DNA from: a virus
Direction: 5' to 3' (one strand)
DNA length: 42,405 nucleotides
Virus record (IMG/VR): IMGVR_UViG_3300047494_000168
Location: 1-42,405 of that record
The notes beneath the pieces are model-generated. The model made no database searches, had not been told where the DNA came from, and worked only from the letters and a program-made list of their open reading frames with translations. A program made the position numbers and the translations under genes. Of this stretch, positions 3,087 to 38,462 are shown piece by piece; position 1 is the stretch's first letter; the number at the start of each line of letters is the position of its first letter.

Positions 3087-3093
3087 ACGTATG

Positions 3094-3122
3094 GATATAC
3101 CGCATTGTTGCGATTTTCGCAA
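3094..3122 (-). promoter_or_regulatory. Promoter of xre gene, predicted leaderless
   Basis: On the minus strand TTGCGA (3122-3117), 17 bases, TATATC (3099-3094), then 7 bases to the ATG at 3086. The -35 box is one half of operator O1. Confidence 0.75.
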
Positions 3123-3124
3123 CA
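3106..3124. promoter_or_regulatory. Operator O1
   Basis: Perfect 19-bp palindrome TGTTGCGATTTTCGCAACA (half-site TGTTGCGA, 3-base centre). The same half-site recurs at 3140 and 3853, always at a promoter of the switch. It covers the -35 of the xre promoter. Confidence 0.85.
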
Positions 3125-3139
3125 CCACAAAGAAGGGGT

Positions 3140-3156
3140 GTTGCGATTTGCTCAAC
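3140..3156. promoter_or_regulatory. Operator O2 (imperfect)
   Basis: GTTGCGA-TTT-GCTCAAC, one perfect and one degenerate half-site, 33 bp (about three helical turns) from O1. It overlaps the -35 of the cI promoter, suggesting autoregulation with a weaker site. Confidence 0.75.
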
Positions 3157-3169
3157 GCTCTGTCAGTCT
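3141..3169 (+). promoter_or_regulatory. Promoter of cI-like gene, predicted leaderless
   Basis: TTGCGA (3141-3146), 17 bases, CAGTCT (3164-3169), then 6 bases to the ATG at 3176. The -10 is weak. A leaderless repressor message has a precedent in lambda cI from PRM. Confidence 0.6.
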
Positions 3170-3175
3170 TTGAGC

Positions 3176-3811
3176 ATGGCTATCCCTGGGTCAAACATCC
3201 GCATCCTTCGACAGCAGCACGGTCTGTCACAGCGCGTCCTCGCCGAGGCCGTGGGCATTGACGTCTCCAACCTCTCCCGCCTGGAGAGTGGCCGGAGCGA
3301 GGGCACGCGGGAGACGATCGAGAAGATCGCCAAAGCGCTGAACGTGACGGTCGGCGTGCTGTACACGGAGGCGGAGAAGGTTGAGGCGGCCGTGCTGCGG
3401 ATGCGCAATGTCGCGGTGCTGAACCCAGAGCAGGCGGCCGCGTGGTCGGGCCCGGACAGCATCGACGCAACGGAGATCGAGCGGTTCCTGCATGTCGAGC
3501 TTCGACGGGCGTCGCGGCACGCGTTTGCTGTGCAACTGGTGGACGACTCGTGTGAGCCGATCTTCCGGCCGGGCGACGATCTGGTCTTTGACCCGGCGAA
3601 GAAGCCTCGGATGGGCAGCTTTGTGCTCGCCCGTGTCAATGAAGGTTCGGTTGCCGTAGGCCAGCTGAGACTGATGGGCGGGGAGCCTGACGGTTCCCAG
3701 GCGTTCGCAGTGGTGCCCCCGGCCCGTGTTTACGCGGCTTTGTCGAGCCGCGAGATCCCCGGCCTGAAGCTGCTGGGGACCCTGGTGGAGAGCCGGCGGT
3801 ACTACGAGTAG
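3176..3811 (+). CDS. cI: CI-like repressor: HTH plus S24-type C-terminal domain
   Basis: 211 residues. N-terminal XRE helix-turn-helix at about residues 7-60 (LSQRVLAEAVGIDVSNLSRL), linker, then a LexA/CI S24 peptidase-like domain. S125 in DDSCEPIFRPGDDL sits where the catalytic serine is expected. The matching lysine (usually in a VK or FK-L segment) is replaced: the segment reads VAVGQLRL. No Ala-Gly or Cys-Gly cleavage pair is evident in the linker. It is therefore likely a stable repressor that does not self-cleave, and induction may need an antirepressor. Start ATG 3176 is favoured over a TTG two codons upstream because of the promoter spacing. The gene lies upstream of, and in the same direction as, the early operon it should repress through the operator at 3853. 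Confidence 0.88.
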   Translation: MAIPGSNIRILRQQHGLSQRVLAEAVGIDVSNLSRLESGRSEGTRETIEKIAKALNVTVGVLYTEAEKVEAAVLRMRNVAVLNPEQAAAWSGPDSIDATEIERFLHVELRRASRHAFAVQLVDDSCEPIFRPGDDLVFDPAKKPRMGSFVLARVNEGSVAVGQLRLMGGEPDGSQAFAVVPPARVYAALSSREIPGLKLLGTLVESRRYYE

Positions 3812-3835
3812 GCGCTTAGCGCATATACTTTGCGC

Positions 3836-3864
3836 TTGACACCCGGTCGAAGTGTTGCGAATAT
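3836..3864 (+). promoter_or_regulatory. Early rightward promoter (PR-like)
   Basis: Consensus -35 TTGACA (3836-3841), 17 bases, GAATAT (3859-3864). The -10 lies inside the operator at 3853-3871, so repressor binding would block polymerase. It drives the early operon beginning at 3894, whose first gene has a leader and a ribosome-binding site. Confidence 0.8.
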
Positions 3865-3871
3865 CGCAACA
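3853..3871. promoter_or_regulatory. Operator O3
   Basis: Perfect 19-bp palindrome TGTTGCGAATATCGCAACA with the same half-sites as O1. It covers the -10 box of the early promoter. Confidence 0.85.
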
Positions 3872-3893
3872 GCACGACTGAGGTGAGCCTGAT

Positions 3894-4067
3894 ATGTCTG
3901 CCCTGGAACAAGCAAAACCCACATTCGATCCCCTGCCGTTGGCGGAGCTGTGCCCCACTTGCACGATGCCGCGGGAGTATCCCGGCCTCGTGCTGGTAGG
4001 CAGCCTTGCGAGCATGTGCGGCGACCCGTTTCACGCGCCCGAGCTGGAGGAGAGTCATGGTGATTAG
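3894..4067 (+). CDS. 57-residue early protein with CxxC motif
   Basis: First gene of the early operon: ATG with GAGGTGAG about 6 bases upstream. The product begins MSALEQAKPTFDPLPL and contains CPTC (residues 20-23) and C42, a possible zinc site. Function unknown. Its last codons overlap the start of the next gene (ATG at 4057), as usual for coupled early genes. The first gene under a PR-type promoter is often a regulator or anti-host factor, but nothing in the sequence says which. Confidence 0.6.
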   Translation: MSALEQAKPTFDPLPLAELCPTCTMPREYPGLVLVGSLASMCGDPFHAPELEESHGD

Positions 4068-4554
4068 TACGATGCGCGCGATGGCGCGGACGTCTCCGCA
4101 GGAGCCCCCGGCGTACCTGGCGTTGCTGCCGGGGCGGCGGGCGATGGTGAAGCTGTGCTGCAATCGGGGCGCGGCGTGCTCGATGTGTCTGCGCAGCATT
4201 GCGGCGTTTCTGGCGCATGAGCTGGGGTATGACACCGAGAACGCGGTGAACCGCAGTGCGGCGAACTATCGCGCGGACCTGGGCGAGAACTACTGCACCG
4301 CGGAGCAGGCGCAGGAGCTGCGCCGGCTGACGGTGCTGGCCTGCGAGCAGAACCTGGGCGCGCGCCGGCCGCCGTATGTGCAGGCGATCCCCTGGCCGAA
4401 GCCGCCGCTGGTGCTGGCCGATGACCTGGCCGAGGACGCCGCGCCGGTGGACGTGGAGGCGTTGATGTGGAACGATCCGCCGGACGCGGAGTTCAAGTTG
4501 GGCAAACTCTTTTGGCTGGTGCTGTTGCTGCTGGCCCTGCTGGCGTTGGCGTGA
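4057..4554 (+). CDS. Tail-anchored membrane protein with cysteine cluster
   Basis: 165 residues starting MVISTMRAMARTSPQEPP, with GGAGGAG 5-11 bases upstream. A cysteine cluster CCNRGAACSMC lies near residue 36, followed by a helical middle part and a strongly hydrophobic C-terminus (LGKLFWLVLLLLALLALA) that should anchor it in the inner membrane with the N-terminal part in the cytoplasm. No family recognised. The membrane-tethered, metal-binding-like layout in an early operon would fit a host-takeover or exclusion factor, which is inference. Its TGA overlaps the next ATG (TGATG). Confidence 0.7.
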   Translation: MVISTMRAMARTSPQEPPAYLALLPGRRAMVKLCCNRGAACSMCLRSIAAFLAHELGYDTENAVNRSAANYRADLGENYCTAEQAQELRRLTVLACEQNLGARRPPYVQAIPWPKPPLVLADDLAEDAAPVDVEALMWNDPPDAEFKLGKLFWLVLLLLALLALA

Positions 4555-4778
4555 TGGTGGTCGCGACATACATCATCAACGAGGTCACGGTGACGTGGCG
4601 GGATACCGGTGGACGCAAGCGGAAACTCAAGCACTGCGACGTCTGCGGCTCAGCCACGACGGGCCGCGCGTCCTTGAACGGAGGTGCTGAGTTCCCAGCG
4701 CACATGCTCTGCGCGATGAAGAAGTGCGAAAGCGCCGCACGGGATCAGAGTCTTGCGCCGACGAGGTCGGCGGCCTAG
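4554..4778 (+). CDS. Small zinc-finger-like protein
   Basis: 74 residues starting MVVATYIINEVTVTW at the ATG that overlaps the preceding TGA. The middle contains HCDVCG and a later HMLCAMKKC, a plausible four-ligand zinc site. The N-terminus reads as a beta hairpin. The stop directly abuts the initiator gene start at 4779, so the two are probably co-translated. Function unknown. Confidence 0.6.
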   Translation: MVVATYIINEVTVTWRDTGGRKRKLKHCDVCGSATTGRASLNGGAEFPAHMLCAMKKCESAARDQSLAPTRSAA

Positions 4779-6251: not shown

Positions 6252-6285
6252 GCCAGCCATCTCAAGCAGCTCGAGGAGCACAACA

Positions 6286-9309: not shown

Positions 9310-9328
9310 GCACCATGTTCATCGGCGC

Positions 9329-9348
9329 GGTTCGCGCATGAGCGAACC
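9329..9348. promoter_or_regulatory. Palindromic operator between XRE gene and methylase
   Basis: GGTTCGC-6 bases-GCGAACC, perfect 7-bp arms. It lies 20-39 bases upstream of the XRE start and just before TTGCCT (9353-9358), which is 36 bases upstream of the methylase ATG at 9389. Confidence 0.7.
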
Positions 9349-9388
9349 TGATTTGCCTGCGCCGGGCTGTGGAGCGACGGTGCGCAGC

Positions 9389-10165
9389 ATGAACGCACCC
9401 TTTGCATGGCCGGGCGGGAAGCGCTGCCTGCTCAAGACGCTGCAGTCCCGCATCCCCGTCCACACCGTATACGTCGAGGTCTTCGCCGGGTCGGCGAAGC
9501 TGCTGTTCGCTAAGGAGCCCTCGAAGGCAGAGGTAATGAACGACCTCAACGGTGACGTCACCAACTTCTTCCGCGTGGCCAAACACCGCGCGGCCGAACT
9601 GGCCGAGCTGCTGGAGCAGGAGGTGGTCCACCCGCAGCGCTTCCGCGACCTGGCCAACGACACCAGCGCGGACGAGCTGTCGCGCGCGCTGCGGTTCGCG
9701 TATCGCACCTGGTACAGCTACGGGGCCAAGGGCGAGCACTTTGCGGCGGCGAGCCTGGTGGAGTCGCTGCGCGGGCAGACGCGCCGGCCGCTGGACACCA
9801 TCCGCGAGCTGCTGACCGTCACGGCGGAACGGCTGCGGCGCGTGCGCATCGAGCAGCGCGACTTCGCCGACCTGATCCGCCGGTTCGATTCGCCGTCGAC
9901 GTTCTTCTACCTGGACCCGCCCTACGTCCATTTCCAGCCGATCGGCCGCTACGACGCGCTGTCGGCAGGGCGACGGGAGGAGCTGTTCGCGGTGCTGGCG
10001 CAGATCCGTGGGACGTTCCTGATGAGCTTTGATAACTGCAGCGAGGTGAGGGAACTGGCGGCCGCGCACGGTATGCGCGTGGAGTTGGTCGAGACCAGGT
10101 ATGGGATTGGCAGCACGAAGGCTTCGCGGGCGACGCTGACCGAGGTGCTGATCAGTGGCCGCTAG
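9389..10165 (+). CDS. dam: D12-class DNA adenine N6-methyltransferase
   Basis: 258 residues. Motif X AWPGGK (residues 6-11), S-adenosylmethionine site EVFAGSAKLLF (about 30-40) and catalytic DPPY (FYLDPPYV) identify a Dam-like D12 adenine methylase; the target is unknown. The start at 9389 (MNAPFAWPGGKR) is chosen because the family begins about ten residues before motif X and TTGCCT sits exactly 36 bases upstream; ATGs at 9311-9338 overlap the operator. Phage methylases protect against restriction or tune promoter and packaging timing. It ends in a CTAG shared with the convergent gene at 10162. Confidence 0.9.
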   Translation: MNAPFAWPGGKRCLLKTLQSRIPVHTVYVEVFAGSAKLLFAKEPSKAEVMNDLNGDVTNFFRVAKHRAAELAELLEQEVVHPQRFRDLANDTSADELSRALRFAYRTWYSYGAKGEHFAAASLVESLRGQTRRPLDTIRELLTVTAERLRRVRIEQRDFADLIRRFDSPSTFFYLDPPYVHFQPIGRYDALSAGRREELFAVLAQIRGTFLMSFDNCSEVRELAAAHGMRVELVETRYGIGSTKASRATLTEVLISGR

Positions 10166-10779
10166 GTGAGGTTGTCGATGTGCACCTTGCGCGGATCGGC
10201 GACGAACTTCAGCAGCTCGGGCGACCAGCCGGGCGATCCTGCCGGCAGGTAGTCCAGGATGGCGCGGGCCATGTGCGGGCAGACGAAGCCCAGCTTGCCG
10301 GGCTCATACCCCGAGGCCGCGCGGATGCGCTTCTCCGGACACGCGCACATGTAGCGGTTCAGGTCGACGGTCCAGGTTCGGTGGCTCACCGCGACCGTCG
10401 GCATCTTGTAGACGGCGTTTTCGAGCGGGAACTTTGGCAGGTCCATGGCGTAGTTCGGCATGGGATGGATGCTGGGTCCGTGGCCCTGGGTGAGCTGCTG
10501 CAGCACGGCGACGATGCGGTCGGCGCGCAGCGTCTTGAAGCCGCCGGCGTGCGTGACGCCGAAGTAGGTCTCGTGGCTGAACTCGCCGATCTTCTGCAGC
10601 TCGATGTTGCGCTCGGAGAGCTCGCCGTCGCGGTCACGGTAGACGATGCGGTAGCGCTCCCGCGGATCGACGATGCGCGTCCAGCGGATGTTGTCCGCCA
10701 TGAGCGGCGGTGAGCCTGCAGCGTTGCGCGGGGCAGGCCGCTTGCGGCGCCAGTCGGGGGTGAGGGTTCGCTTCGCCAT
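10162..10779 (-). CDS. WYL-like plus SWIM-type zinc finger protein
   Basis: 205 residues. After a basic N-terminus (MAKRTLTPDWRRKRPAP), residues about 30-95 (RYRIVYRDRDGELSERNIEL, then GGFKTLRADRIVAVL) look like a WYL-type SH3-barrel ligand domain. Near residue 140, CAC, and about 23 residues later CPH, fit the SWIM pattern CxCx(n)CxH. A WYL/SWIM pairing without a helix-turn-helix is unusual; it might bind nucleic acid or a nucleotide signal. The start at 10779 has TTGCAC exactly 36 bases upstream and CACAGT 6 bases upstream, so the message is probably leaderless. Divergent from 10825. Confidence 0.6.
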   Translation of the reverse strand: MAKRTLTPDWRRKRPAPRNAAGSPPLMADNIRWTRIVDPRERYRIVYRDRDGELSERNIELQKIGEFSHETYFGVTHAGGFKTLRADRIVAVLQQLTQGHGPSIHPMPNYAMDLPKFPLENAVYKMPTVAVSHRTWTVDLNRYMCACPEKRIRAASGYEPGKLGFVCPHMARAILDYLPAGSPGWSPELLKFVADPRKVHIDNLT

Positions 10780-10785
10780 GGCGCG

Positions 10786-10818: not shown

Positions 10819-10824
10819 GCAGGT

Positions 10825-11098: not shown

Positions 11099-11323
11099 AT
11101 GGCCGCACCTTCCAGAGCAGGCGGACGAGCTCCACGGCAGCGTGAGCACCTGCCGCGCAAGAAGAAGAGCTTTCGCATCGACTTCCGCGTCGAGTGCTAT
11201 GAGCGCCTGCGCGAACTTCAGCAGATCCGGCACGATGGGCAGCCGGAATCCCTGGCTGAGGTGGTGGAGCGGTTGATTATGAGCGCGCCGCAGTCATCGA
11301 TGCTGCCCTTTCAGCGGGGGTAA
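11099..11323 (+). CDS. Small basic protein, possible ribbon-helix-helix
   Basis: 74 residues, starting MAAPSRAGGRAPRQREHLPR. The segment KSFRIDFRVECYERLRELQQ followed by an acidic second helix (LAEVVERLIMSA) has the strand-helix-helix rhythm of ribbon-helix-helix DNA-binding proteins. CACAAT lies 7 bases before the ATG, again without a ribosome-binding site, but no good -35 is seen. Function unknown. Confidence 0.55.
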   Translation: MAAPSRAGGRAPRQREHLPRKKKSFRIDFRVECYERLRELQQIRHDGQPESLAEVVERLIMSAPQSSMLPFQRG

Positions 11324-11876
11324 GGCTAGGATTGGCAGCTCCAGATGAGCGCCTCTGGGTACACTGCTTAGCACTTGTGAGAGCGCACCGCAGCCGCGCC
11401 CATGACCTTGCCGCACTTTTGGCAGGTGTAGAGGCGCGTTGGCCGGCCTTGCCGCCGAAGTAGGCTTCGTCGATTTCGACCATGCCCTGCAAATTCACGA
11501 ACTCACCGCCGCAAGCCTCACGGAGACGGTGGAGCATAAACCATGCGGATTTTTGGGTAACACCGATCTCTTTGGCTATCTGCATAGAGGAGATACCTTT
11601 GCGGGCGGTAACAAGCAGGTACATCGCGTAGATCCACTTATGCAGCGGGATGTGCGACCGCTCGAAAATCGTGCCTGTGCGGATAGTGAAATCGAGTTGG
11701 CACTTGTTGCAGCGATAGAAGCCCTCACGCTTGCGGGTGGTGATGCGATCTTGACCGCCGCAGGTAGGGCAGGTGGTGCCTTTAGGCCAGAGACGGCCCT
11801 CAAGATAAATGCGGGCCGTCGATTGGTCGGGGAACATTTGGAAAAGCTGAAAGGTGCTGATAGTGGATTTGCTCAT
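11277..11876 (-). CDS. Truncated IS1595-type transposase, probably frameshifted
   Basis: The first 137 residues match the IS1595 transposase N-terminus: zinc ribbon (CPTCGG and YRCNKC), helix-turn-helix (ISSMQIAKEIGVTQKSAWFM) and the first catalytic Asp in EIDEAYFGGK. The rest of the DDE domain is missing. After the GGK the open frame turns into an Arg/Ala/Ser-rich run that overlaps the gene at 11099. In the -1 frame the sequence instead gives RLYTCQKCGKVMGAAAVRS followed by HKC and a stop at 11368, a plausible zinc finger with no overlap. So the real product may be about 169 residues (11368-11876) after a -1 shift, or the gene may be a decayed fragment. GAGGGG precedes the ATG. No terminal inverted repeats were seen. 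Confidence 0.65.
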   Translation of the reverse strand: MSKSTISTFQLFQMFPDQSTARIYLEGRLWPKGTTCPTCGGQDRITTRKREGFYRCNKCQLDFTIRTGTIFERSHIPLHKWIYAMYLLVTARKGISSMQIAKEIGVTQKSAWFMLHRLREACGGEFVNLQGMVEIDEAYFGGKAGQRASTPAKSAARSWARLRCALTSAKQCTQRRSSGAANPSLTPAERAASMTAARS

Positions 11877-11879
11877 GGC

Positions 11880-12161
11880 TTACATCCCCTCGAATTCAGC
11901 GGCGCGACGTTCCCATGCGGTGGGTTCCTGCGAGCCATCGGCGGCGATTACATGGCCGGTGCTGTCCTCGACCCGCGCGTTGTACCAGCGCGCAGACGTA
12001 GAGCCATCGCGCCATGCAGTGAGGCGTTCGTAGCAAGCTTGTGCAGTCGCAAAGCTCTTATGGTTGTGACCGCAGTTTGCAATCTCCTCATGGATGCCAG
12101 TGGATGCGCTCCAGGAGTTAGGGTTGCGGACGATGACGGAGTAGGTGATTGTGTTGGACAT
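11880..12161 (-). CDS. 93-residue protein, unknown
   Basis: Starts MSNTITYSVIVRNPNSWSA, with GGAGG 9 bases before the ATG (an upstream in-frame ATG at 12176 lacks this). It reads as a small alpha/beta domain (SFATAQACYERLTAWRDGST, RWYNARVEDSTGHVIAADG), similar in rhythm to short proteins that decorate phage accessory regions. Followed after 3 bases by the transposase-like gene, with which it forms a leftward operon. Confidence 0.6.
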   Translation of the reverse strand: MSNTITYSVIVRNPNSWSASTGIHEEIANCGHNHKSFATAQACYERLTAWRDGSTSARWYNARVEDSTGHVIAADGSQEPTAWERRAAEFEGM

Positions 12162-12212
12162 GATGCTGGCCTCCAAAGCCGTTCTAGGTTGTGGCTGTCT
12201 GCCACTAGAGAT

Positions 12213-12241
12213 AAGGTACTTGAGTCCCGCGCTATTGTCAA
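12213..12241 (-). promoter_or_regulatory. Leftward promoter of 12161-11368 operon
   Basis: Minus-strand TTGACA (12241-12236), 17 bases, TACCTT (12218-12213), with a leader of about 45 bases to the ATG. It lies in an AT-rich patch (12230-12310) that also holds the palindrome TGTTGCAACA (12284-12293), which resembles fused CI half-sites. Confidence 0.65.
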
Positions 12242-12347
12242 CAGTTATTTTCAGAAAAAGTCATTTATTTTAGGCGCGCTATCTGTTGCAACAAAGAGTT
12301 TGTACGTGTTGCGGGTTTTTGCTCCACGTGCATGGCATTGTGGGTTA

Positions 12348-12896: not shown

Positions 12897-13120
12897 CCCA
12901 CAGCGCGCCGCTGCTCGATAAAACGATGGAGACGCGGACGCGGTAGCCACCAAGCGCACCACGAGGCCATCACGCGGCAGTGAGACCGTGCGACGGAGGG
13001 GTTCAGATGCGAGGCGAAGGTACTCCCTGGACTTTCCGCCACGCGGGTAACGCGCCACCGCACGTTCGGGCTATATGAGTCCCGAAAAGGGCATTTCCGT
13101 TTCCGAGAGGGCTTCACTAG
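12897..13120. other. Intergenic region upstream of terminase; cos position
   Basis: 224 bases without a convincing gene. In lambda-like phages cos lies here, just before the small terminase gene. An inverted CGCG-GGTAA-CGCG occurs at about 13046-13058 and a GAGAGG ribosome-binding site before 13121. No cos nick site can be assigned by eye. Confidence 0.4.
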
Positions 13121-15887: not shown

Positions 15888-15917
15888 TTGACCGTTTTTC
15901 CGGCGTACCTGTAACAC
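15888..15917 (+). promoter_or_regulatory. Late promoter 1, predicted leaderless
   Basis: TTGACC (15888-15893), 18 bases, TAACAC (15912-15917), 6 bases, GTG 15924. The -35 starts exactly 36 bases before the start codon. An A/T-rich stretch (15838-15900) precedes it. Confidence 0.65.
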
Positions 15918-15923
15918 CTTGCG

Positions 15924-16520
15924 GTGAGCTCCTTCCCGCTGCCCCCGCCGCTGCTGCCCGCCAAGAGTCTGCCGCCGCGCCTGCGTGGGGGTGACCTGCT
16001 GGCCTTCTCCGTGCAGACCAACCTGCCGGCGGGCTTCACCCTCCTGTACATCCTCACCGCTGTGATCGCGGGCGTGCCCACGCGCATCACGCTGGCTGCG
16101 GTGGTCGTCAGCGCCACGGGCCTGGCCAGCTTCAGCGTCCCCGGCACCACCACCACGGCCTGGCTGCAGGGGCGGTATAGCTGGCTGCTCTTCCAGGTGG
16201 ATGCCAGCGGCAACCGCGACCAGCTCGCGGAGGGCGAGATCTACATCGAGGCCGACCCCGCCGGCACGGCCGTCCCGGACCCGCGCAGCTACAACCAGAA
16301 GCTGCTGGACTCCATCCGCCAGGTCCTCGCAGGTGCCGTCACCAGCGACGTCACCATGTACAAGATCGGCGGCCGCGAGGTCACGAAGATGCCGCGCCTG
16401 GACCTGATGAAGTGGGAGGCGCTCATCGCCTCCCGCGTTCGCCGGGAGCGCGTCCGCCGCGGCCAGTCCGTCGACACCCGCACGCTCGGTATCACCTTCG
16501 GCGGCAGGGGGCAGGTATGA
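15924..16520 (+). CDS. gpW-like head-tail joining protein with N-terminal beta domain
   Basis: 198 residues from a leaderless GTG. It lies where lambda W lies, between large terminase and portal. The C-terminal 65 residues (LLDSIRQVLAGAVTSDVTMY, KIGGREV, LMKWEALIASRVRRERVRRG) follow the gpW pattern of helix, short sheet, helix and basic tail. The first 110 residues are a beta-rich extra domain (GFTLLYILTAVIAGVPTRIT) not found in lambda gpW. Expected role: closing the head after packaging. Its stop overlaps the next ATG (ATGA). Confidence 0.65.
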   Translation: MSSFPLPPPLLPAKSLPPRLRGGDLLAFSVQTNLPAGFTLLYILTAVIAGVPTRITLAAVVVSATGLASFSVPGTTTTAWLQGRYSWLLFQVDASGNRDQLAEGEIYIEADPAGTAVPDPRSYNQKLLDSIRQVLAGAVTSDVTMYKIGGREVTKMPRLDLMKWEALIASRVRRERVRRGQSVDTRTLGITFGGRGQV

Positions 16521-18406: not shown

Positions 18407-18646
18407 ATGGAGCTCGGCCAGATCGGCTATGAGGCCTACCGCAACTCCACGGACGGGATCTCGCTCGTCACCGGCGCGCTGATCCCGCAGTGGAAGTTGC
18501 TCAACAGCTCCGTGCAGAACGCCTGGGCCATCGCAGCGGCGGCCGTTGCCATGCACGTGATGGATGAGTACTCCACGGAGCTCAACGGCAGGCTGCAAAA
18601 ACTCGGCCAAAAACTCCCAATTCCTCCTCAAGAAGGCCAGATTTGA
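18407..18646 (+). CDS. Small head-module protein
   Basis: 79 residues starting MELGQIGYEAYRNSTDGISL. Short helical proteins with this opening (G..AY..Y/N... W..L....Q.AW..AA.AV) commonly sit next to portal genes in lambdoid phages; the role is unknown. A GTG at 18398 overlapping the portal stop is the alternative start. A promoter for the capsid gene lies in its last codons. Confidence 0.65.
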   Translation: MELGQIGYEAYRNSTDGISLVTGALIPQWKLLNSSVQNAWAIAAAAVAMHVMDEYSTELNGRLQKLGQKLPIPPQEGQI

Positions 18647-18672
18647 CACGAAATCGAGCGGCGACGGATAAA
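18643..18672 (+). promoter_or_regulatory. Late promoter 2, for protease-capsid gene
   Basis: TTGACA (18643-18648), 18 bases, GATAAA (18667-18672), 9 bases, ATG 18682. Leader predicted at 0-3 bases. This is the best -35/-10 pair of the late set, fitting the need for much capsid protein. Confidence 0.7.
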
Positions 18673-18681
18673 CCCGGTGCG

Positions 18682-20883
18682 ATGTCCACGTCTCAGCGCG
18701 CCCACAAACCCGTTCCCGGCATCCTCGCGTCGATCACCGCCGCGGCGGCCAAAGCTGGCGTCAAAAAGCCGGAGCTGGACGAGCGCGGCATTCCGAAGAA
18801 GCTGGGCGAGCAGTTCCGCCGCAGCGCGGTGGACACCTCCAGCGGCTTCGACAAGGAAGCCGGCACGGTCACCATGGCCTTCAGCTCGGAGACCCCGGTC
18901 GACCGCTGGTACGGCGTGGAGGTCCTCTCGCACGAGAAAGGTGCCATCCGCACCGGCCGCCTCAAGGGCGGCGTCTCGCTGCTCTTCAACCACGACTACG
19001 ACAAGCAGCTCGGCCGCTCGGTTAGCTGGCAGCTGCGGGACGACAAGACCGGCGAGATCACCGCGCGCTTCGGCCCCAGCCCGCTGGCTCAGGAGAAGAT
19101 GGCCGACGTCGAGGCCGGCATCCTGGTCGATGTCAGCTTCGGCTACATCGTGCACGAGTGGGAGATCACCGAGGACAAGAACGGTGTCCGCACCTACCTG
19201 GCCGTCGATTGGGAGCCCCTCGAGGTCTCGCTGGTCACCGTGCCGGCAGACCCCACCGTCGGCGTCGGCCGTGGCGCGGAGCCGGTGGAGGTCAAGGTCC
19301 GCAGCTTCCGCAGCTTCGATTCGGCCAGCGAAACAGTCCCGCCCGTCCCCGATGCCACCCGCACCGCCGATCCGGACGAGGACGACGACGACGAGGATGA
19401 CGACCCCGAGCCCGACCCGGAAGACGACCGCTCGGCCCAGCCAGTTTTAGATCCGCCCATTCCAGCAACGCAAAGGACCACCATCATGGCAGAAGAGACC
19501 GTAGACCTCGCAGCCCAGAATGAGACGCGCAAGGCAGGTCTGCGCGCTCTCCACACCGCCTACCCCGAGGCGTTCACCGCGCGCGCCCTCGAGGCCGCCA
19601 TCGCCCTGGACGTTCCCTTGGCCGATGCCAAGCGCAGCATCGCTGAGCGCATCATCACGGACGCGGAAAAGAGCGACGTACCCACCGTCGGCGAGGACAC
19701 CTTTGGCCGCATGAGCGCGAAGGAGATCCGCAACTACTCCATCGCCGCTGCCTACCGCGCTGCGGTCAACAAGACGAACCCCGGCACCTTCCGCGGCAAG
19801 GAAGAGGGCGGCTTCGAGCGCGAGGTCTCCGAGTCCCTGCTCAAGGAAGCCGAGGACAACGGCGTCCGCACGCTGGGCGCTGGCATCGTCATCCCCAGCG
19901 TGACGAACAAGCGCCTCTGGCAGGCGCAGCTTGAGCGCGCCATCAGCTCCGGCGGCAACGCTGGAACGGCGTCGAACTTCACGGTCGTCAACCCCGACCC
20001 CATCGAGCTGCTCCGCACCCAGACCGGTTGCCTGGCGCTCGGTGCCCGTATGCTCCCCGGCCTCCACGGCGCGATGCAGATGACCCGCCAGAACGCGGCG
20101 GCCAGCAGCTCCTGGCTGGCTGAGCTGGCTGGAATCACCGAGTCGGACCCCGGCTTCGATTTCTTCACCATGAAGCCCAACCGCCTCAGCATCGCGAACG
20201 CTTACACCCGCGACTTCCTGGCGCAGTCGGACTTCGCGATCGAGTCCATCCTCTCCGACGACCGCCGCGAGGTGCTCGGCATCTCGCTGGACACCGCCGG
20301 CATCGCCGGCAGTGGCGTGGCCCCGGTGCCCAAGGGCATGCTGAACTACACCGGCCTCGGTGCGCTCCTGGCTGGCTCCGCGCGCAACGCCAGCACCGGC
20401 GCAGTCACGGCTGGCGCAGGTGGCGCGCCGCTCACCTATGTGGACATCACTCACATGGAGAGCGGGCTGGGCACCGGCAACGCCGGGCAGCTCGGCACCC
20501 CCGCGTGGCTCACCACGTACGGTATCCGTGGCGCCCTGCTCAGCACGCCCAAGACCCCCGGTACCGCGAGCGAGTTCATCTGGCCGGACTCCCCGCTGAA
20601 CTCCCTCGGCCTGCAGGCCGGTCCTCGCGGCTACCAGGCCAAGTGCATCACCAACCCGGCGCTTACCGGCTTCACGGCCAACAGCGTCGCTGGTTGCCAT
20701 GCCATGATCCTCGGCATCTGGAACCAGATGCTGATCGGCGACTGGGGCCTGTCGGAGGTGATCGTCGATCCGTACACCGGAGCCGCGAACGCCACGATCA
20801 ACATCACCGAGCACGCCTTCTACGACATCAACTTCCGCCACATCGCTGCCTTTATCGCCTGCACCTCGGCGGTACCCAGCTAG
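18682..20883 (+). CDS. Prohead protease / HK97-type major capsid protein fusion
   Basis: 733 residues. Residues about 45-210: HK97-type (U35-like) prohead protease with LLFNHD (H104), VSFGY (S152) and the family signature EVSLVTVPADP (181-191). An acidic linker (DPDEDDDDEDDDPEPDPEDD) follows. Residues about 269-733 are the HK97-fold major capsid protein with a helical, scaffold-like delta region first (about 269-370). The protease should cut itself away and trim the capsid during maturation. An internal ATG at codon 269 with AAAGGA upstream may give free capsid protein. The start at 18682 is preferred over TTG 18643, which is the -35 box. Such fusions are known in several phages. Confidence 0.92.
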   Translation: MSTSQRAHKPVPGILASITAAAAKAGVKKPELDERGIPKKLGEQFRRSAVDTSSGFDKEAGTVTMAFSSETPVDRWYGVEVLSHEKGAIRTGRLKGGVSLLFNHDYDKQLGRSVSWQLRDDKTGEITARFGPSPLAQEKMADVEAGILVDVSFGYIVHEWEITEDKNGVRTYLAVDWEPLEVSLVTVPADPTVGVGRGAEPVEVKVRSFRSFDSASETVPPVPDATRTADPDEDDDDEDDDPEPDPEDDRSAQPVLDPPIPATQRTTIMAEETVDLAAQNETRKAGLRALHTAYPEAFTARALEAAIALDVPLADAKRSIAERIITDAEKSDVPTVGEDTFGRMSAKEIRNYSIAAAYRAAVNKTNPGTFRGKEEGGFEREVSESLLKEAEDNGVRTLGAGIVIPSVTNKRLWQAQLERAISSGGNAGTASNFTVVNPDPIELLRTQTGCLALGARMLPGLHGAMQMTRQNAAASSSWLAELAGITESDPGFDFFTMKPNRLSIANAYTRDFLAQSDFAIESILSDDRREVLGISLDTAGIAGSGVAPVPKGMLNYTGLGALLAGSARNASTGAVTAGAGGAPLTYVDITHMESGLGTGNAGQLGTPAWLTTYGIRGALLSTPKTPGTASEFIWPDSPLNSLGLQAGPRGYQAKCITNPALTGFTANSVAGCHAMILGIWNQMLIGDWGLSEVIVDPYTGAANATINITEHAFYDINFRHIAAFIACTSAVPS
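19472..19488 (+). promoter_or_regulatory. Internal ribosome-binding site and start for capsid half
   Basis: AAAGGA (19472-19477) stands 8 bases before an in-frame ATG (19486-19488, MAEETVDLAAQNE) exactly at the border between the acidic linker and the capsid domain. Translation here would yield a 465-residue capsid protein without the protease. Confidence 0.6.
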
Positions 20884-23147: not shown

Positions 23148-23177
23148 TTGACGGCTTCGCGGTGCCGGGGCTACACA
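23148..23177 (+). promoter_or_regulatory. Late promoter 3, predicted leaderless
   Basis: TTGACG (23148-23153), 18 bases, TACACA (23172-23177), 6 bases, ATG 23184; 36-base spacing. The first 13 bases TTGACGGCTTCGC are identical to those of the promoter at 34431. Confidence 0.75.
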
Positions 23178-23183
23178 TCCGGC

Positions 23184-23672
23184 ATGGCAAGCACGGAGCT
23201 CACCCCCCAGCGCGGCGCGATCCCTGTCGACCTCGACCGGCCGCGCGTCCTCTTCTTTGACCACAACGCCACCTGGCTGCTGATTCAGAAGTACGGTGAG
23301 CGGTTCGTCCCGGAGCTCTACCGCGTCAACGAGAAGCGCGAGCTGGTGCTGCACAGCATGGACGCGCTCGCCTACTTCCTGTGGGCGGGCGTGCAGCGTG
23401 ATGCGCTGGAGCAGGGCGCGCCCTTCGCGCTGGCTGACGCGCAGGACGCGCTGCGGCCTTACACCTACACCCGCATCTTCAAGGCCGTGCTGCTCGCGGT
23501 GGTGGGAGGTACGGCCGCGCCGGCGCCGCCGGGAAAACCGGAAGCGCCCGGCGCAAAGGAGCAGCCGAGCGCAGCGGGTCCGGGAGGAGCAGGGACGGCA
23601 AGGGCCGCTTCGCCTCCGGAACCGGGGCCCACCAGGGTTATGACATCGTCGAAGCGCAGCGCATCGCGCTAG
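23184..23672 (+). CDS. Tail assembly chaperone G
   Basis: 162 residues starting MASTELTPQRGAIPVDLDRP. The N-terminal 110 residues (FDHNATWLLIQKYGERFVPE, then YTRIFKAVLLAVVGG) form the chaperone domain typical of gpG proteins; the tail is Ala/Pro/Gly-rich. The gene is preceded by a leaderless-type promoter and ends at 23672 unless ribosomes slip at 23531-23537. With the GT form it binds the tape measure and guides tube assembly. Confidence 0.8.
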   Translation: MASTELTPQRGAIPVDLDRPRVLFFDHNATWLLIQKYGERFVPELYRVNEKRELVLHSMDALAYFLWAGVQRDALEQGAPFALADAQDALRPYTYTRIFKAVLLAVVGGTAAPAPPGKPEAPGAKEQPSAAGPGGAGTARAASPPEPGPTRVMTSSKRSASR

Positions 23673-26495: not shown

Positions 26496-26525
26496 TTGCC
26501 ACGTTTGCCGCGACCGTCGCATATA
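26496..26525 (+). promoter_or_regulatory. Late promoter 4, predicted leaderless
   Basis: TTGCCA (26496-26501), 18 bases, CATATA (26520-26525), 6 bases, GTG 26532; 36-base spacing. Confidence 0.6.
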
Positions 26526-26531
26526 GACGGT

Positions 26532-27092
26532 GTGACGACCACCAGGAAACCCGCCAAGCACCCCAACCGCATCCCGTTCGAGGGGCTGCTCACCCGCCTC
26601 GACGTGCCCAGCGACAAGGCACCCACCGGTGCGCGCGGTCACCGCGTCATCCTGACCACGGCGGCTGCCGAGGAGGCGCTGGACTCGCTGGTGGGCATGG
26701 CCGTGAGCTTCAAGCGCGAGTGGGATGGCCACGACGCACGGCAGAAGTGCGGCGTCATCACCCGGGCCTGGATTCAGGACAGTGACCTGCGCGTGCGCGG
26801 CCACATCTTCGGGCATGACTTTCCGGAGGTCGCCGCGGAGATGCGCAAGTCGAAGGTGCACCTCGGCATGAGCTACGAGATGGTCAACGCCAAGATCGAG
26901 GACATGGCCGCCCCGATGTGGACGCTGGTTCAGGTCACCTTCACGGGTGCGGCGATCCTGCAGAGCCTCAAGGCAGCGTACAAGTCCACGCGGATCGCGC
27001 TCATCACGGCCACGGCGGAGCCCGTCACGGCCCGCTTCAACGGCAAGCTCCGCTTCCACGGCCAGGGCAAGGTCAAGCTGCTCAAAGGCTAA
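26532..27092 (+). CDS. Protease-like protein in the tail module
   Basis: 186 residues from a leaderless-type GTG. The order of motifs resembles the prohead serine protease fold: GHDA (H67), strands (GVITRAWIQDSDLRVRGHIF), a short helix, then LGMSYE (S114) and VTFTGAAIL near residue 135, like the HD, VSFGY and EVSLVTVPAD of the protease at 18682. Whether it is active is unknown; catalytic roles of H67 and S114 are inference. Its place after the tape measure is odd for a head protease. It might process a tail protein or be a structural derivative. Confidence 0.5.
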   Translation: MTTTRKPAKHPNRIPFEGLLTRLDVPSDKAPTGARGHRVILTTAAAEEALDSLVGMAVSFKREWDGHDARQKCGVITRAWIQDSDLRVRGHIFGHDFPEVAAEMRKSKVHLGMSYEMVNAKIEDMAAPMWTLVQVTFTGAAILQSLKAAYKSTRIALITATAEPVTARFNGKLRFHGQGKVKLLKG

Positions 27093-27371: not shown

Positions 27372-28135
27372 AAGTTCACGCGGAAGCCGGACTTCAGCAG
27401 GTTGTTCACCAGCACCTCGGCGGCGGCGCGGGTGAAGTTGCGCTCCAGGTTGGCGTCCACCGCCTGCTGCACCAGCTCCTCCATCGGGAAGCGCGCGGAG
27501 ATGTGCGCCTCGCGAATGAGCGTGTACCAGGGCTCGGCGTCGTGGCTGCCCCCGTAGCCCATGCCCCCATGCCGCACGAAGATGCAAAGCGTGCCGCCGG
27601 TCATCTGCACGAAGGCCACGTAGTCGTTGGTGGCCAGCTTCGTGCGGATGGCCTTGCCCAGGCCGCGGCGGGGCCGTGGCGCCCCCTTGACGGTGAAGTT
27701 GCCCTGGTATTCCACACCGATCTCCACACCCGGAGGCAGCAGGTTCTTGGGCCGCAGCGCGTCGGGGATCGCACCGGGAGCGACGCGGCGGAGGTAGCGC
27801 GTGGGGATAGCCAGGAAGCGGTGGCCAGCCACTGGCACTTTGTCGCCGCCCTCGTCCTGGCGGGGCAGGTAGTCGGGCGCGCCGCTCTTGCGGTTGCTGG
27901 TGTCGGTGTAGACCTCGCTGAACATCGTCTTCTTCGTGGCCGGCGTGATCTTCGTGTTCTGCGTGGTCCAGTCGTTGCGCAGCTTGAAGACGTTGCGCTC
28001 GCCCTGCCGCGCGGCCTCCTGCCCGCTCTGCGCCTGCATGGTGAGGAAGCGCGCGATGGTGAAGGGCAGGTCCTCGCCGAGCATCTGCTCCAGCCCCTTG
28101 ATCGGCCCGTCGATGTCGCACTTCACGCTCAGCAT
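27368..28135 (-). CDS. gpZ-like minor tail protein on the reverse strand
   Basis: 255 residues from ATG 28135 (MLSVKCDIDGPIKGLEQMLG). An N-terminal helical segment (FTIARFLTMQAQSGQEAARQ), a mid part (RNVFKLRNDWTTQ) and C-terminal helix (ARFPMEELVQQAVDANLERN) resemble the gpZ/HK97-gp10 group that completes the head-tail joint. The only late structural gene facing left. Start chosen because TTGCCG lies exactly 36 bases upstream and GAGACT 6 bases upstream; a longer frame begins at 28261 but would cross the neighbour's promoter. Family assignment is moderate. Confidence 0.6.
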   Translation of the reverse strand: MLSVKCDIDGPIKGLEQMLGEDLPFTIARFLTMQAQSGQEAARQGERNVFKLRNDWTTQNTKITPATKKTMFSEVYTDTSNRKSGAPDYLPRQDEGGDKVPVAGHRFLAIPTRYLRRVAPGAIPDALRPKNLLPPGVEIGVEYQGNFTVKGAPRPRRGLGKAIRTKLATNDYVAFVQMTGGTLCIFVRHGGMGYGGSHDAEPWYTLIREAHISARFPMEELVQQAVDANLERNFTRAAAEVLVNNLLKSGFRVNF

Positions 28136-28141
28136 GGGGTG

Positions 28142-28184
28142 AGTCTCGCGCGTTTTGCCAGAAACCGGCAACGCGCGGCATAAC
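28142..28184. promoter_or_regulatory. Face-to-face overlapping leaderless promoters (Z-like / M-like)
   Basis: Minus: TTGCCG (28171-28166), 18 bases, GAGACT (28147-28142), 6 bases, ATG 28135. Plus: TTGCCA (28155-28160), 18 bases, CATAAC (28179-28184), 6 bases, GTG 28191. The two -35 boxes lie between the two -10 boxes, so the polymerases would collide. Confidence 0.65.
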
Positions 28185-28190
28185 CTTGCG

Positions 28191-28559
28191 GTGCTGACCT
28201 TCCCCCAGCTCTCGCGCAAGCCCGCCCTCCGCACCCGCGGGACCACGCTTGACCCCACCATTCGCGACAGCTACGAGAACGGCATGGAGAGCACTCGCGC
28301 GCGCTACACCCGGCCGCGCCGGCAGTGGGACTATGCCATCGACTTCCTCACCCCGGCCGACGTGCGCAGGCTGCAGAACTTCGTCGAGAAGAAGGCGGTG
28401 TTCGGCGCGCTGCCGTTCATCTTCCCGGACCCGGCCCGCGACCCCAGCACCCCCAGCTACCCGAATGTGCGCTTCAGCACGCTGCCCAGCTACACGGACG
28501 CCGGCAACGTGGACGGACAGTTCCGCCAGAACTGCGCCTTCCAGATCCGGGAGGTGTAG
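28191..28559 (+). CDS. Minor tail protein M-like
   Basis: 122 residues from a leaderless-type GTG (VLTFPQLSRKPALRTRGTTL). The pattern TRARYTRPRRQWDYAIDFLT, DVRRLQNFVEKK, FIFPDPA, RFSTLP and a final strand (QNCAFQIREV) is that of gpM-type minor tail proteins, which help build the tail tip. Directly followed by the L-like gene, as in lambda. Confidence 0.75.
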   Translation: MLTFPQLSRKPALRTRGTTLDPTIRDSYENGMESTRARYTRPRRQWDYAIDFLTPADVRRLQNFVEKKAVFGALPFIFPDPARDPSTPSYPNVRFSTLPSYTDAGNVDGQFRQNCAFQIREV

Positions 28560-28562
28560 CCG

Positions 28563-34422: not shown

Positions 34423-34430
34423 CCCTGGTT

Positions 34431-34460
34431 TTGACGGCTTCGCTCGCCCGTGACTACACC
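34431..34460 (+). promoter_or_regulatory. Late promoter 5, predicted leaderless
   Basis: TTGACG (34431-34436), 18 bases, TACACC (34455-34460), 5 bases, ATG 34466; 35-base spacing. Near-copy of the promoter at 23148. Confidence 0.75.
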
Positions 34461-34465
34461 TGCAC

Positions 34466-35296
34466 ATGCAGGCAACGGCCGTCTCCACCACCGCAACCAC
34501 CACCGCAGGCTCGGCGGCCGTCACCGTCGTCAGCGCCACGGGCCTCACCCAGGGCCAGGTCATCTTCATGGCCGGCCTCGCGGCGGGCACCACTATCCTG
34601 TCGATCGCGGGCACCACCGTCACCCTGAGCGCCACGGCCACGGCCACGGCCTCCGCCGCGAACCTGCTGGCCTTCACCCCGGGCTTCGTGCCGCTGCTGG
34701 CCAGCAACATCCAGAACGCTGACGGCACACCTCTGGCCGCGGGCTTCCTCGAGATCGTCCCGACGGACACCAGCGACAACCCGCTCACGGCGGTCGCTGG
34801 CGGAACGGGCGGCGCCATCGCCACCGCCCCGGCCGTGGTCACCATCACCAACGGCGCCATCCCCGCCGGCATCTGCATCCCGGACAGCTCGCAGACCCGG
34901 CCCGCGAACCTCTGCTACCGCATCTCCATCCTGGACGCGACCACCGTGCCGATCTTCACCTGGCGCACCGTGCAGACCGCCGCGAACACCCCGCTCAACC
35001 TGGACACCCTGCAGCCCAACGTCCCAACCCAGGCCATCGTGCAGGCCGGCCCTCCGGGGGCGCCGGGGGCGGCCGGGGTCGCTGGCACGCTGATCGCTGA
35101 GGTCCCCGGCGGCGTCATCGGCACGGACACCACCTTCACCCTGGCCCACACCCCCGCCAGCGTCATCGGCGTCTTCCGCAATGGGCTGCTCCGCGCCGCC
35201 TCAGAGTACACCTTCAACTCCGCCACCACATTTAGCTGGACCACCAACCCCATCACCCAAGGAGAATCTCATGCGGTGCTTTACATCCATGCCTAA
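34466..35296 (+). CDS. Small tail fibre protein with collagen-like segment
   Basis: 276 residues. Residues 1-60 are the same beta module as in the tube and L-like proteins (AVTVVSATGLTQGQVIFMAG, AAGTTILSI, VTLSATATATASA). A central domain (about 70-185) looks like a fibre-attachment domain, followed by a short collagen-type GPPGAPGAAGVAG and a C-terminal domain (GVIGTDTTFTLAHTPASVIG, VFRNGLL, YTFNSATTFSW) typical of phage fibre ends. Probably a trimeric fibre bound to the tip. The tailspike gene starts within its last codons. Confidence 0.75.
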   Translation: MQATAVSTTATTTAGSAAVTVVSATGLTQGQVIFMAGLAAGTTILSIAGTTVTLSATATATASAANLLAFTPGFVPLLASNIQNADGTPLAAGFLEIVPTDTSDNPLTAVAGGTGGAIATAPAVVTITNGAIPAGICIPDSSQTRPANLCYRISILDATTVPIFTWRTVQTAANTPLNLDTLQPNVPTQAIVQAGPPGAPGAAGVAGTLIAEVPGGVIGTDTTFTLAHTPASVIGVFRNGLLRAASEYTFNSATTFSWTTNPITQGESHAVLYIHA

Positions 35297-37994
35297 ACTG
35301 CTCGGCCTCGCGTTGGCCACCGTCGCCTTGGCCGCGTCGGCGCAGACCAAGATCAACGCCAAGAACGACATCAACTGGCAGCCACTCACCGGCAACAGCA
35401 GCGTGCTGCCGTCGCTGGCTCCCACCCAGGTCAACGTCGACATCTACCCCGGCTCGGATGTGGGCGCGAAGATCACCGCCGCCCAGGCGGCGATGCCCTC
35501 CGGCTTCTATATCACCCTCTCGGTCAACACGGCTGGCACCCTCTCCACCGCTTACACACTCGCCGCCGGCAATGACCTCGTCGTCAATGCTCCTGTCACC
35601 GTCGCTGCAACTGGAACACTAGCGGGGAACAACCGCATCACCTGCTCCTCGGCAGCGATCCTCACCACGACCATCGCGCATCCTTTCGTCTCTACGGCCA
35701 GCAACCTCACCATCGACCACTGCCAGCTCGCTAGCACCTACTCTGGCAACGCGCTCCTGCTCAGCACCACGGGCAGCAGCAGTGTGCTTATCGACCACAA
35801 CCGCACGACCTCGCAAGGCATGGGCCTTCTCAGCGCGACCGGTGGAAACGGCATCCGCACAGCCTTCAACGATGTCATCTGGCCTTCCAGCGGTGGTGTG
35901 TACGCCGTGTATTGGCAGGGCAACGCCAACGACGTGACGGTGACGAACAACCACTTCAAGAACGTCGCTGACCCCGTTGAGTTCTTCAACGCAAACGCGA
36001 ACCCAAGCAGCTATTCGGGGTCGGGCGGATGCCCCGGAAGCCCCACAGCATATCCGGGTAGCCGCGCCTTGGTGGCAAGTTGTGGTGGGCGATACATCAT
36101 CGCAAACAACCAGTGCGAGGGAGCTGTATCTTGCTTTTGGGGTTCCGTCGCTCACGATGTGGTGGTGGCCAATAACACGGCATCGGGTTGCAGTGATGTC
36201 TGCTATGACGCTGAGGGAAGCATCGACGTGACCTTCGCCAATAACACCGGTGATACAGCGGGGACAGCGGTGGGCAGCGTGTTTTTCTTCGCAGATCATA
36301 TCCAGTGGACTGGCAATCACTTTAGTCAGAACCCCAGCGGTGCCTTGATTCAAGCCTTCAACGCTTCGCAAAATCCGGGTGCTCAAAACTATATGACGGT
36401 CGAGGGCAACACGCTCAACTGCTACCCTCCGTCTTCGGGCTACTCATCGCCATGCACAGGCGTTGGTGGTGACCCTATCGCCAACTTCGCCATCAAGGGC
36501 AACACCTTCAAGGATGCGGGCGTTAGTTTCGGCAATCAGATTGGCGGAACCTCGCTGATTGCCAATAACGATATGATCTTCACCACGGCCTTCGGGTCTG
36601 CGGCCAACGCCATCAATATCGGCGATGTCACCAATGCGAGTGGCAGCCTGAAGGTGGAGAACAACACCATCACTTCCGTCGCTCAGCCTAGCGGTTCAGC
36701 GGCCATCTACGTGCAGCTTTACGACTACAACGACATCAACACTGCCTACATCACAGGCAACCACACCTATGGTGCTACGGGCTATGCGGGTGGCTTTCCC
36801 GTGGACATCAGCACCGTGAACGCCAGCGGCAACGCAGCGCAATACTGGCTCGTCACGGACAACTATGCAGGTGCGGGGAACATTCGGCACACGATTCCGG
36901 GTGGCCACGGTGATGGCTATGCTCACTACGATAACAAGCTCGACAACTCCGGAACCCAAGCGTGGTACTTAGACACACCAATGGTGACACAAGACCAAGC
37001 GTCGAAGACAGGGGCTACGACAACCTACGACCCTTATGGGGCTGCTGCTGCTGCTCAGAGTGCGGCCATTGCCTCTGCCAATGCGACCGCTGCCAACGCC
37101 AGCAACCTCAGCAGCGGCACGGTGAACCCCGCGCTGCTGCCGGTATTTGGGGCAAGCGGCTCAACACACGCCGTTGGTGCGGTGCCCGACCCTGGCGCGA
37201 CGGCGGGAGCCGCACGGTATCTGCGCGAGGACGGGATGTGGGTGGCTCCGCCTTACCTGGCGCTGGACAGCAGCGGCAACATCTCGGTGCCAGGGCAATC
37301 CAGCTTTTCTGGCACGGCCACGTTTCATCACGAGTTCAACTCGATTGCCGCGGCCGGCGATGCCGCGGGTGTGATGGTGCCCTCGGACGACACGGCGAAC
37401 ACCAAGGAGCTGTACGGGGCCAACCACGCCAACAGTACCTATGTCTGGTGGATCAACAACGATGGCAGCGCGCAGTACCCCAGCGTCAACGGAGTAGCCC
37501 TCACGAACACCGGGGACGGCACGAAAACTCTCTACAACGACGGCACTTACAAGACACCGCCTTCTGGTGGTTCAACAGGCATCACCGCAAATGGTGGCTA
37601 CACATTGACCAACCAGACCGGCAATATCGGCGGCTATGGTTTGTCGCTCGTGTATCAGGTGCCGACAGGTGGTGATGGTGAGTACGAGGTCAGCGGCTCG
37701 CTCTATGTCGATACAGTCGCCACAACCGCCTCCTCGGACGGGCTGGCCCTCCAGTGGTTCATCAAAGCCGGTTACTCACCCTACAACTTCCCGGACTTCT
37801 CATGGAACGCAATCAACGGTTGTGTGGTGACGACAGGTGTTACTGGTCCATGCCAGGACCACAATTCAGGCATCTTCGCTCCGAGCAAGAAGTATTACCT
37901 CAAGGCGGGCGACCTCATCTACTTCGGCACTTCAGATCCGACGACCAATAACGCAGTGTATGACGTTACTTGGAAGGTCGTGAAAGTGAACTAG
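35271..37994 (+). CDS. Beta-helix tailspike with predicted signal peptide
   Basis: 907 residues, AAGGAG 9 bases before ATG 35271. The N-terminus MRCFTSMPKLLGLALATVAL followed by AASAQTK looks like a Sec signal peptide with an AxA site. Residues about 60-560 are repetitive (NLTIDHCQLAS, VTVTNNHFKNV, VVANNTASGC, SLKVENNTITS), a right-handed parallel beta-helix as in pectate lyases and tailspikes. A fibre shaft motif (NLSSGTVNPALLPVFG) and a C-terminal receptor-type domain with two cysteines (C868, C877 region) follow. Base composition drops visibly between about 35,600 and 37,990, which suggests recent acquisition. Role: binding or degrading surface polysaccharide. Confidence 0.75.
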   Translation: MRCFTSMPKLLGLALATVALAASAQTKINAKNDINWQPLTGNSSVLPSLAPTQVNVDIYPGSDVGAKITAAQAAMPSGFYITLSVNTAGTLSTAYTLAAGNDLVVNAPVTVAATGTLAGNNRITCSSAAILTTTIAHPFVSTASNLTIDHCQLASTYSGNALLLSTTGSSSVLIDHNRTTSQGMGLLSATGGNGIRTAFNDVIWPSSGGVYAVYWQGNANDVTVTNNHFKNVADPVEFFNANANPSSYSGSGGCPGSPTAYPGSRALVASCGGRYIIANNQCEGAVSCFWGSVAHDVVVANNTASGCSDVCYDAEGSIDVTFANNTGDTAGTAVGSVFFFADHIQWTGNHFSQNPSGALIQAFNASQNPGAQNYMTVEGNTLNCYPPSSGYSSPCTGVGGDPIANFAIKGNTFKDAGVSFGNQIGGTSLIANNDMIFTTAFGSAANAINIGDVTNASGSLKVENNTITSVAQPSGSAAIYVQLYDYNDINTAYITGNHTYGATGYAGGFPVDISTVNASGNAAQYWLVTDNYAGAGNIRHTIPGGHGDGYAHYDNKLDNSGTQAWYLDTPMVTQDQASKTGATTTYDPYGAAAAAQSAAIASANATAANASNLSSGTVNPALLPVFGASGSTHAVGAVPDPGATAGAARYLREDGMWVAPPYLALDSSGNISVPGQSSFSGTATFHHEFNSIAAAGDAAGVMVPSDDTANTKELYGANHANSTYVWWINNDGSAQYPSVNGVALTNTGDGTKTLYNDGTYKTPPSGGSTGITANGGYTLTNQTGNIGGYGLSLVYQVPTGGDGEYEVSGSLYVDTVATTASSDGLALQWFIKAGYSPYNFPDFSWNAINGCVVTTGVTGPCQDHNSGIFAPSKKYYLKAGDLIYFGTSDPTTNNAVYDVTWKVVKVN

Positions 37995-38015
37995 CCGGGT
38001 GCGTAATCGCGGGAT

Positions 38016-38045
38016 TTGACGGCGACCCCGGCCTCGCCGTATCAC
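38016..38045 (+). promoter_or_regulatory. Late promoter 6, lysis cassette
   Basis: TTGACG (38016-38021), 18 bases, TATCAC (38040-38045). Start codon 38064 lies 18 bases further on, so the leader is short (about 10-12 bases), unlike the others. Confidence 0.6.
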
Positions 38046-38063
38046 CTTCCTGCGAGTCCAGCA

Positions 38064-38462
38064 ATGCGCCTGCAGATCACCCTCCACGTCGTCCCGGAAC
38101 CCGCCGCCCCCGTCGACCTCCACGCCGAGTCCGACGGCGAGCGCCCCGTCCGCTGGTGGTCTGCGGAGTTCAACCTGCGCAATGCCCTGGCCACCATCGC
38201 GCTCATCGCTGGGGCCGTCGCGGCCTATGGCGGCTTCCAGGCGCGGCTGGCCCGGCTGGAGCTCAAGCAGGCCGCCGACCATGAGGCCATTGCGCAGATC
38301 CACGCCGAGGCCGCCCAGCTCCGCACTGACACCGTTCCACGCGCCACCTACGAGCATGACACCGCGCAGCTCGACCTCATGCTCACCTTGCTGGTCCCCG
38401 GCACCGGCGCGGCGCCGCACCTGCTCTACCCCGTCCCCAGCATCCTCAGGGAGGTCCACTGA
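38064..38462 (+). CDS. Membrane protein with coiled coil, lysis cassette
   Basis: 132 residues starting MRLQITLHVVPEPAAPVDLH. One membrane helix (NALATIALIAGAVAAYGGFQ, about residues 40-58) followed by a coiled coil (ARLELKQAADHEAIAQIHAE). Position immediately before the endolysin suggests a holin, holin-like or antiholin role. Its TGA overlaps the endolysin ATG. Confidence 0.6.
   Translation: MRLQITLHVVPEPAAPVDLHAESDGERPVRWWSAEFNLRNALATIALIAGAVAAYGGFQARLARLELKQAADHEAIAQIHAEAAQLRTDTVPRATYEHDTAQLDLMLTLLVPGTGAAPHLLYPVPSILREVH

Follow-up and report, generated by a model that had tools for sequence, protein, structure and literature searches.

Do the structural genes of this phage start from promoters placed so close that their messages open on the start codon itself? 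The window, which spans the entire virus record (42,405 bases, 66% G+C, with a 127-base direct terminal repeat), is the genome of a temperate, siphophage-like soil phage encoding an integrase, an excisionase-like protein, a cI-type repressor, terminase, portal, a fused protease/capsid protein, tape measure, a lambda-J-like fibre, and an endolysin. Two different tyrosine integrases are present, at 40414-41319 and 59-1333. In lambda-like temperate phages, a single long late mRNA with Shine-Dalgarno sites usually carries the structural genes. A first-pass annotation of the window described a phage-wide set of leaderless promoters with a -35 box 35-36 bases before the start codon, and the distances it listed hold at every coordinate. 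Judging from the sequence, we consider it likely (probability about 0.8) that clade-specific sigma-70-like promoters yield leaderless or near-leaderless mRNAs for the structural units.

The underlying observation, TTG[AC]C 35-36 bases before gene starts, is real. The motif lies at -36 of 6 of the 58 gene starts (the methylase gene dam, 15924, 23184, 26532, 28191, and, on the minus strand, 28135), at -35 of 34466, and at -39 of 18682, where about 0.13 would be expected at any one offset. At 35-36 bases it precedes 7 of 57 gene starts compared with 22 of 3613 other ATG/GTG/TTG codons (Fisher p = 1.8e-7). The comparison with shuffled sequence, proposed earlier as a check, bears this out: 2000 dinucleotide shuffles of the upstream regions gave a mean of 0.24 and a maximum of 3, against 7 observed. 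Filters for ORF starts were used because counts at in-gene codons are blurred by codon periodicity. A neutral rule taking the first ATG/GTG of each ORF returns identical starts with no choice involved; under it, the count of TTTG[AC]C at offset 36 is 4 for the window, where other offsets average 0.11, and 13 for close relatives, where they average 0.67. Coincidence, or an artefact of how start codons were chosen, could be invoked for the dam, WYL, 10825, and cI sites, which fit no better than chance, and TTG[AC]C-36-RTG combinations are numerous inside genes. As a general explanation it is very improbable given the window enrichment, the shuffles, the neutral rule, and the collection-wide pattern described below, and for the strong set it is refuted by conservation in relatives. 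We count as strong the sites before 15924, 23184, 26532, 28191, and 34466, together with the Z-like gene 28135 through its relative. The supported promoters are:

15888..15926, plus strand, joining-gene promoter: TTGACC (15888-15893), 18 bases, TAACAC (15912-15917), 6 bases, GTG 15924
18643..18684, plus strand, protease/major capsid promoter: TTGACA, 18 bases, GATAAA (18667-18672), 9 bases, ATG 18682
23148..23186, plus strand, promoter of 23184, predicted leaderless: TTGACG, 18 bases, TACACA (23172-23177), 6 bases, ATG
26496..26534, plus strand, promoter of 26532, predicted leaderless: TTGCCA, 18 bases, CATATA (26520-26525), 6 bases, GTG
28133..28171, minus strand, Z-like minor tail promoter: TTGCCG (28171-28166), 18 bases, GAGACT (28147-28142), ATG 28135
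28155..28193, plus strand, promoter of 28191: TTGCCA, 18 bases, CATAAC (28179-28184), 6 bases, GTG 28191
34431..34468, plus strand, promoter of 34466, predicted leaderless: TTGACG, 18 bases, TACACC (34455-34460), 5 bases, ATG
38016..38066, plus strand, promoter of 38064: TTGACG, 18 bases, TATCAC (38040-38045), ATG 38064

Viral contigs with portal proteins 54-69% identical were examined at orthologous starts. Orthologs sharing about 30-88% protein identity keep the order TTTG[AC]C, 18 bases, a [T/C/G]A box, 5-6 bases, and the start. The joining-gene promoter is kept in six close relatives with 36 bases from TTG to the start (37 in one), the orthologs reading TTTGACCG...TA at that distance, and also in distant relatives; the mRNA of the head-tail joining gene 15924 is predicted to be leaderless. 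The 23184 promoter is conserved at 35-37 bases in L207, L214, L008, L212, and L210, and that of 26532 at 36-37 bases in L207, L214, L205, and L008, while the 34466 promoter stands at 35 bases in L210, L214, and L205 and at 36 bases in prophage L217. The 28191 promoter is retained at 36 bases in L210 and L207, and its -35 box belongs to a palindrome, TTGCCAGAAACCGGCAA (28155-28171), that it shares with the divergent Z promoter. For the Z-like gene, whose -10 box is weak, boxes and distance are retained in one ortholog, L017/L016. The relatives also back the downstream ATG/GTG starts that had been preferred to the TTG of the -35 box at 18682, 23184, 26532, and 28191.

Before the capsid gene, the boxes in the clade read GATTTGAC...GATAACC, 39-41 bases from the start, and the orthologs of close relatives GATTTGACA...GATAACC at the same distance. 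Since the GATAA(A/C) box ends about 9 bases before the capsid ATG, the leader is expected to measure about 3 bases, and the 18682 mRNA probably carries one of 2-5 bases. For 38064 the predicted +1 lies at about 38052, giving a leader of about 12 bases without a Shine-Dalgarno sequence, and the gene is likely an exception to the leaderless rule.

Further afield, the 36 bases are retained in the more distant phages L104, L106, L102, and L103 (portal 39-41% identical), and the acidobacterial prophages L217 and L239 carry TTGCCG-18-CATAAC-6-GTG before the capsid gene. The related prophage L018/L217 is carried by Acidobacteriaceae strain TAA 166, and its capsid GTG is at L217:203. At L217:150-203 the upstream gene has a terminator-like hairpin, and the 3' arm of that hairpin contains the -35 box; before the capsid gene of L170, L105, and L114 such a hairpin arm likewise appears to double as the -35 box. 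No offset-36 peak was found among mostly proteobacterial relatives and prophages, and in many of those inspected the capsid gene overlaps or closely follows the upstream gene. Genes led by Shine-Dalgarno sequences, such as 20981 and the portal gene, have no such upstream element in relatives. Part of an offset-36 peak in distant contigs was rejected as promoters, being a conserved portal-end coding stretch (L125, L126, L147, L149, L151, L154, L156, L157, L160, and L161). A capsid-type pattern, GATTTGAC-N17-20-GATAACC-N2-6-GC(A/G)ATG, run on 2.9 million viral contigs returned nine matches, all nine in the clade and positioned either at the capsid gene or at a small ORF. The equivalent collection search with the joining-gene pattern returned 15 stretches. 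Six lie at joining-gene ortholog starts in clade members or distant relatives, and one, in the clade contig G252, precedes an ORF of 46 residues; the remainder are at short ORFs or within other ORFs.

Translation signals differ between the two groups of genes. Predicted pairing with the 16S tail has a median of -2.5 in the strong set, where 0 of 8 genes reach -6 kcal/mol or lower, and of -7.8 in the other genes, where 31 of 45 do (p = 9e-5 between the sets), in agreement with the earlier statement that genes within operons use Shine-Dalgarno sequences. Geometry, conservation, and the lack of Shine-Dalgarno sequences thus lend good support to the part of the leaderless claim that concerns several structural genes, with leaders of 0-5 bases.

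The phage-wide scope of that claim does not extend to the immunity, methylase, and WYL-region sites, which are weak; the promoter before 3894 is leadered with a Shine-Dalgarno sequence, and 18682 and 38064 are likely short-leadered. Two candidates lie in the immunity region:

3084..3122, minus strand, candidate xre promoter, seen in one genome only: TTGCGA, 17 bases, TATATC, 7 bases, ATG 3086
3141..3178, plus strand, candidate cI promoter with a weak -10 box: TTGCGA, 17 bases, CAGTCT, 6 bases, ATG 3176

The TTGCG of the xre site sits inside a cI-operator-like palindrome and lacks independent support, though a promoter there is plausible. That of cI, a gene with no Shine-Dalgarno sequence, likewise lies inside an operator-like repeat. 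Three such repeats, GTTGCGAAAATCGCAAC, GTTGCGATTTGCTCAAC, and GTTGCGAATATCGCAAC (3105-3121, 3140-3156, and 3858-3874), lie on either side of cI, an arrangement resembling the lambda immunity region. The third repeat coincides in part with the -10 box of a promoter (TTGACA at about 3836) upstream of 3894, the first gene after cI, whose message would have both a leader and a Shine-Dalgarno sequence. Upstream of the dam gene 9389 there is a sequence matching Shine-Dalgarno (-7.7 kcal/mol), and a -10-like box is missing. A palindrome, GTTCGCGCATGAGCGAAC (9319-9350), lies between the HTH gene 9309 and dam, and a similar one occupies the same place in L204. The proposed site before the WYL gene 10779 reads TTGCA, with nothing conserved there in relatives, and that before 10825 reads GTGAC, not TTGAC.

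An alignment of 26 sites, chosen for carrying TTG[AC]C and [TC]A and in part sharing descent, revealed T at -37, A/T at -38, G at -30, A/T at -28/-27, and C at -6 beyond the selected letters. The -35 hexamer is TTGACA-like, with TTGAC or TTGCC at all strong sites, and the spacer to the A-containing box is 18 bases at nearly all sites, within the 16-19 of sigma-70. The -10 box is atypical, as T at -7 is absent from all 26 sites (A at the second position was a selection criterion, T at the sixth was not), and a strict sigma-70 scan matches none of these promoters. High-GC bacteria commonly have non-canonical -10 boxes, and the missing T therefore lowers the case for sigma-70 use without excluding it. 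Standard promoter geometry applied to these boxes and spacing would place +1 on the start codon. The start codon is mostly GTG (20 of 26), followed by A; this counts against the favoured explanation, since the mapped leaderless starts of S. meliloti are all AUG (PMC3616915).

The phage host is probably a member of the Acidobacteriota, where the evidence points without proof. The best portal relative by E-value belongs to an Acidobacteriaceae prophage (39% identity), which by identity is no closer than proteobacterial portal relatives (36-40%). A provirus search of genome_contigs found no close copy. An attP-like core, TTCGAATCCCCCACTCTCCGCCA (about 42157-42180), adjoins the integrase gene and equals a tRNA-Ser 3' end; it occurs exactly in 27 of 247 Acidobacteriota genomes, G001 among them, and is suggestive only. 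A truncated IS1595-type transposase gene is 69-73% identical in DNA to Acidobacteriaceae copies. This remnant (zinc-ribbon domain only) and a small gene occupy 11277-12290, separating the WYL-like gene from gene 12348; in relatives these two genes stand close together and divergent. Upstream of terS, GGGCATTTCCGTTTCC (13087-13120) is conserved in relatives and may be a cos or packaging site.

With such a host, the promoters could be real and yet represent a common leaderless signal of the host that the phage adopted. About 13% of genes in Acidobacteria are predicted to be leaderless (PMC3160421), and in one sampled Acidobacteriota genome TANNNT shows an excess at -12/-13 relative to in-frame starts (4.7% against 1.4%, p = 9e-7). 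We nevertheless think this rather unlikely: the four Acidobacteriota chromosomes sampled (1.6 Mb), which may not include the host's, display Shine-Dalgarno enrichment and no excess of TTG[AC]C at -35 to -37. Moreover, the phage box about 12 bases before the start reads TANNN[AC] or CANNNN, without the final T of TANNNT.

It is also possible, if somewhat doubtful, that TTTG[AC]C chiefly serves to bind a phage regulator, whether activating or repressing, at a weak promoter, and that the distance to the start follows from this site. Conservation does exceed the -35 box, at -38, -37, -30, and -28/-27, and the TTGCC type forms the palindrome at 28155-28171; yet the first six bases are near a normal -35 box, and kinship among the aligned sites inflates the conservation. 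A WYL-domain-like protein (10162-10779), whose C-terminal part is rich in Cys and His, and gene 12348 are both conserved beside the late genes; the former, conserved in the clade, has weak fold matches to PafBC, BrxR, and DriD. PafBC is a WYL activator bound to RNA polymerase. A fold search with gene 12348, which adjoins terS, gave no matches, and any role for either protein in the late promoters is a guess. More doubtful still is that the sites form a phage-specific late promoter class, recognised with a phage factor (the WYL-like protein or 12348 being candidates), that couples late transcription to leaderless translation. Structural genes would then be translated only from their own promoters, not from read-through RNA.

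We retain the reading of clade-specific sigma-70-like promoters. Several structural units would start from the phage's own promoters, comprising (A)TTTG[AC]C at -36, an 18-base spacer, and a -10 box at -12 to -7 with A at its second position, and +1 would fall on the start codon or a few bases from it. Initiation there would be by the host's main RNA polymerase holoenzyme, perhaps with help from a phage factor. The mRNAs would begin with GUG or AUG (the capsid leader not exceeding about 5 bases), and ribosomes would read them by the leaderless pathway; genes inside each unit would be translated via Shine-Dalgarno sequences or coupling. If leaderless mRNAs, often starting with GTG, do head the capsid, joining, and tail units across the clade, leaderless translation could be studied there in a natural setting other than Actinobacteria and Deinococci. 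Gene starts assigned in soil virus contigs would also be corrected, and the promoter pattern provides a sequence signature for these viruses.

A literature search found no report of such promoters in Acidobacteriota phages, and promoters go unmentioned in a paper describing acidobacterial virus isolates (PMC11924767). Among the closest parallels are cluster O mycobacteriophages, where leaderless mRNAs are predicted at three promoters (PMC4351075). In Corndog, the sigma-70-type SigA promoters PL1 and PR2 are likewise predicted to initiate at the first nucleotide of the start codon, and PL2 is similarly placed within the structural operon; however, the host is an actinobacterium rich in leaderless genes, sequence and phage differ, and there are three such promoters rather than one before most structural units. 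Leaderless phage mRNAs are also known for cI/cro: those of lambda (cI) and PY54 begin at AUG, as mapped by RACE in PY54, but they are confined to the immunity region and do not involve structural genes (PMC4488713). Finally, a TA-type -10 box near -12 marks leaderless genes across bacteria (PMC3160421). As in those genes, the position of the phage -10 box would put +1 on the start codon, and no Shine-Dalgarno sequence is present; the phage sites differ in conserving a strong, extended -35 box and in a -10 box without T at the sixth position.
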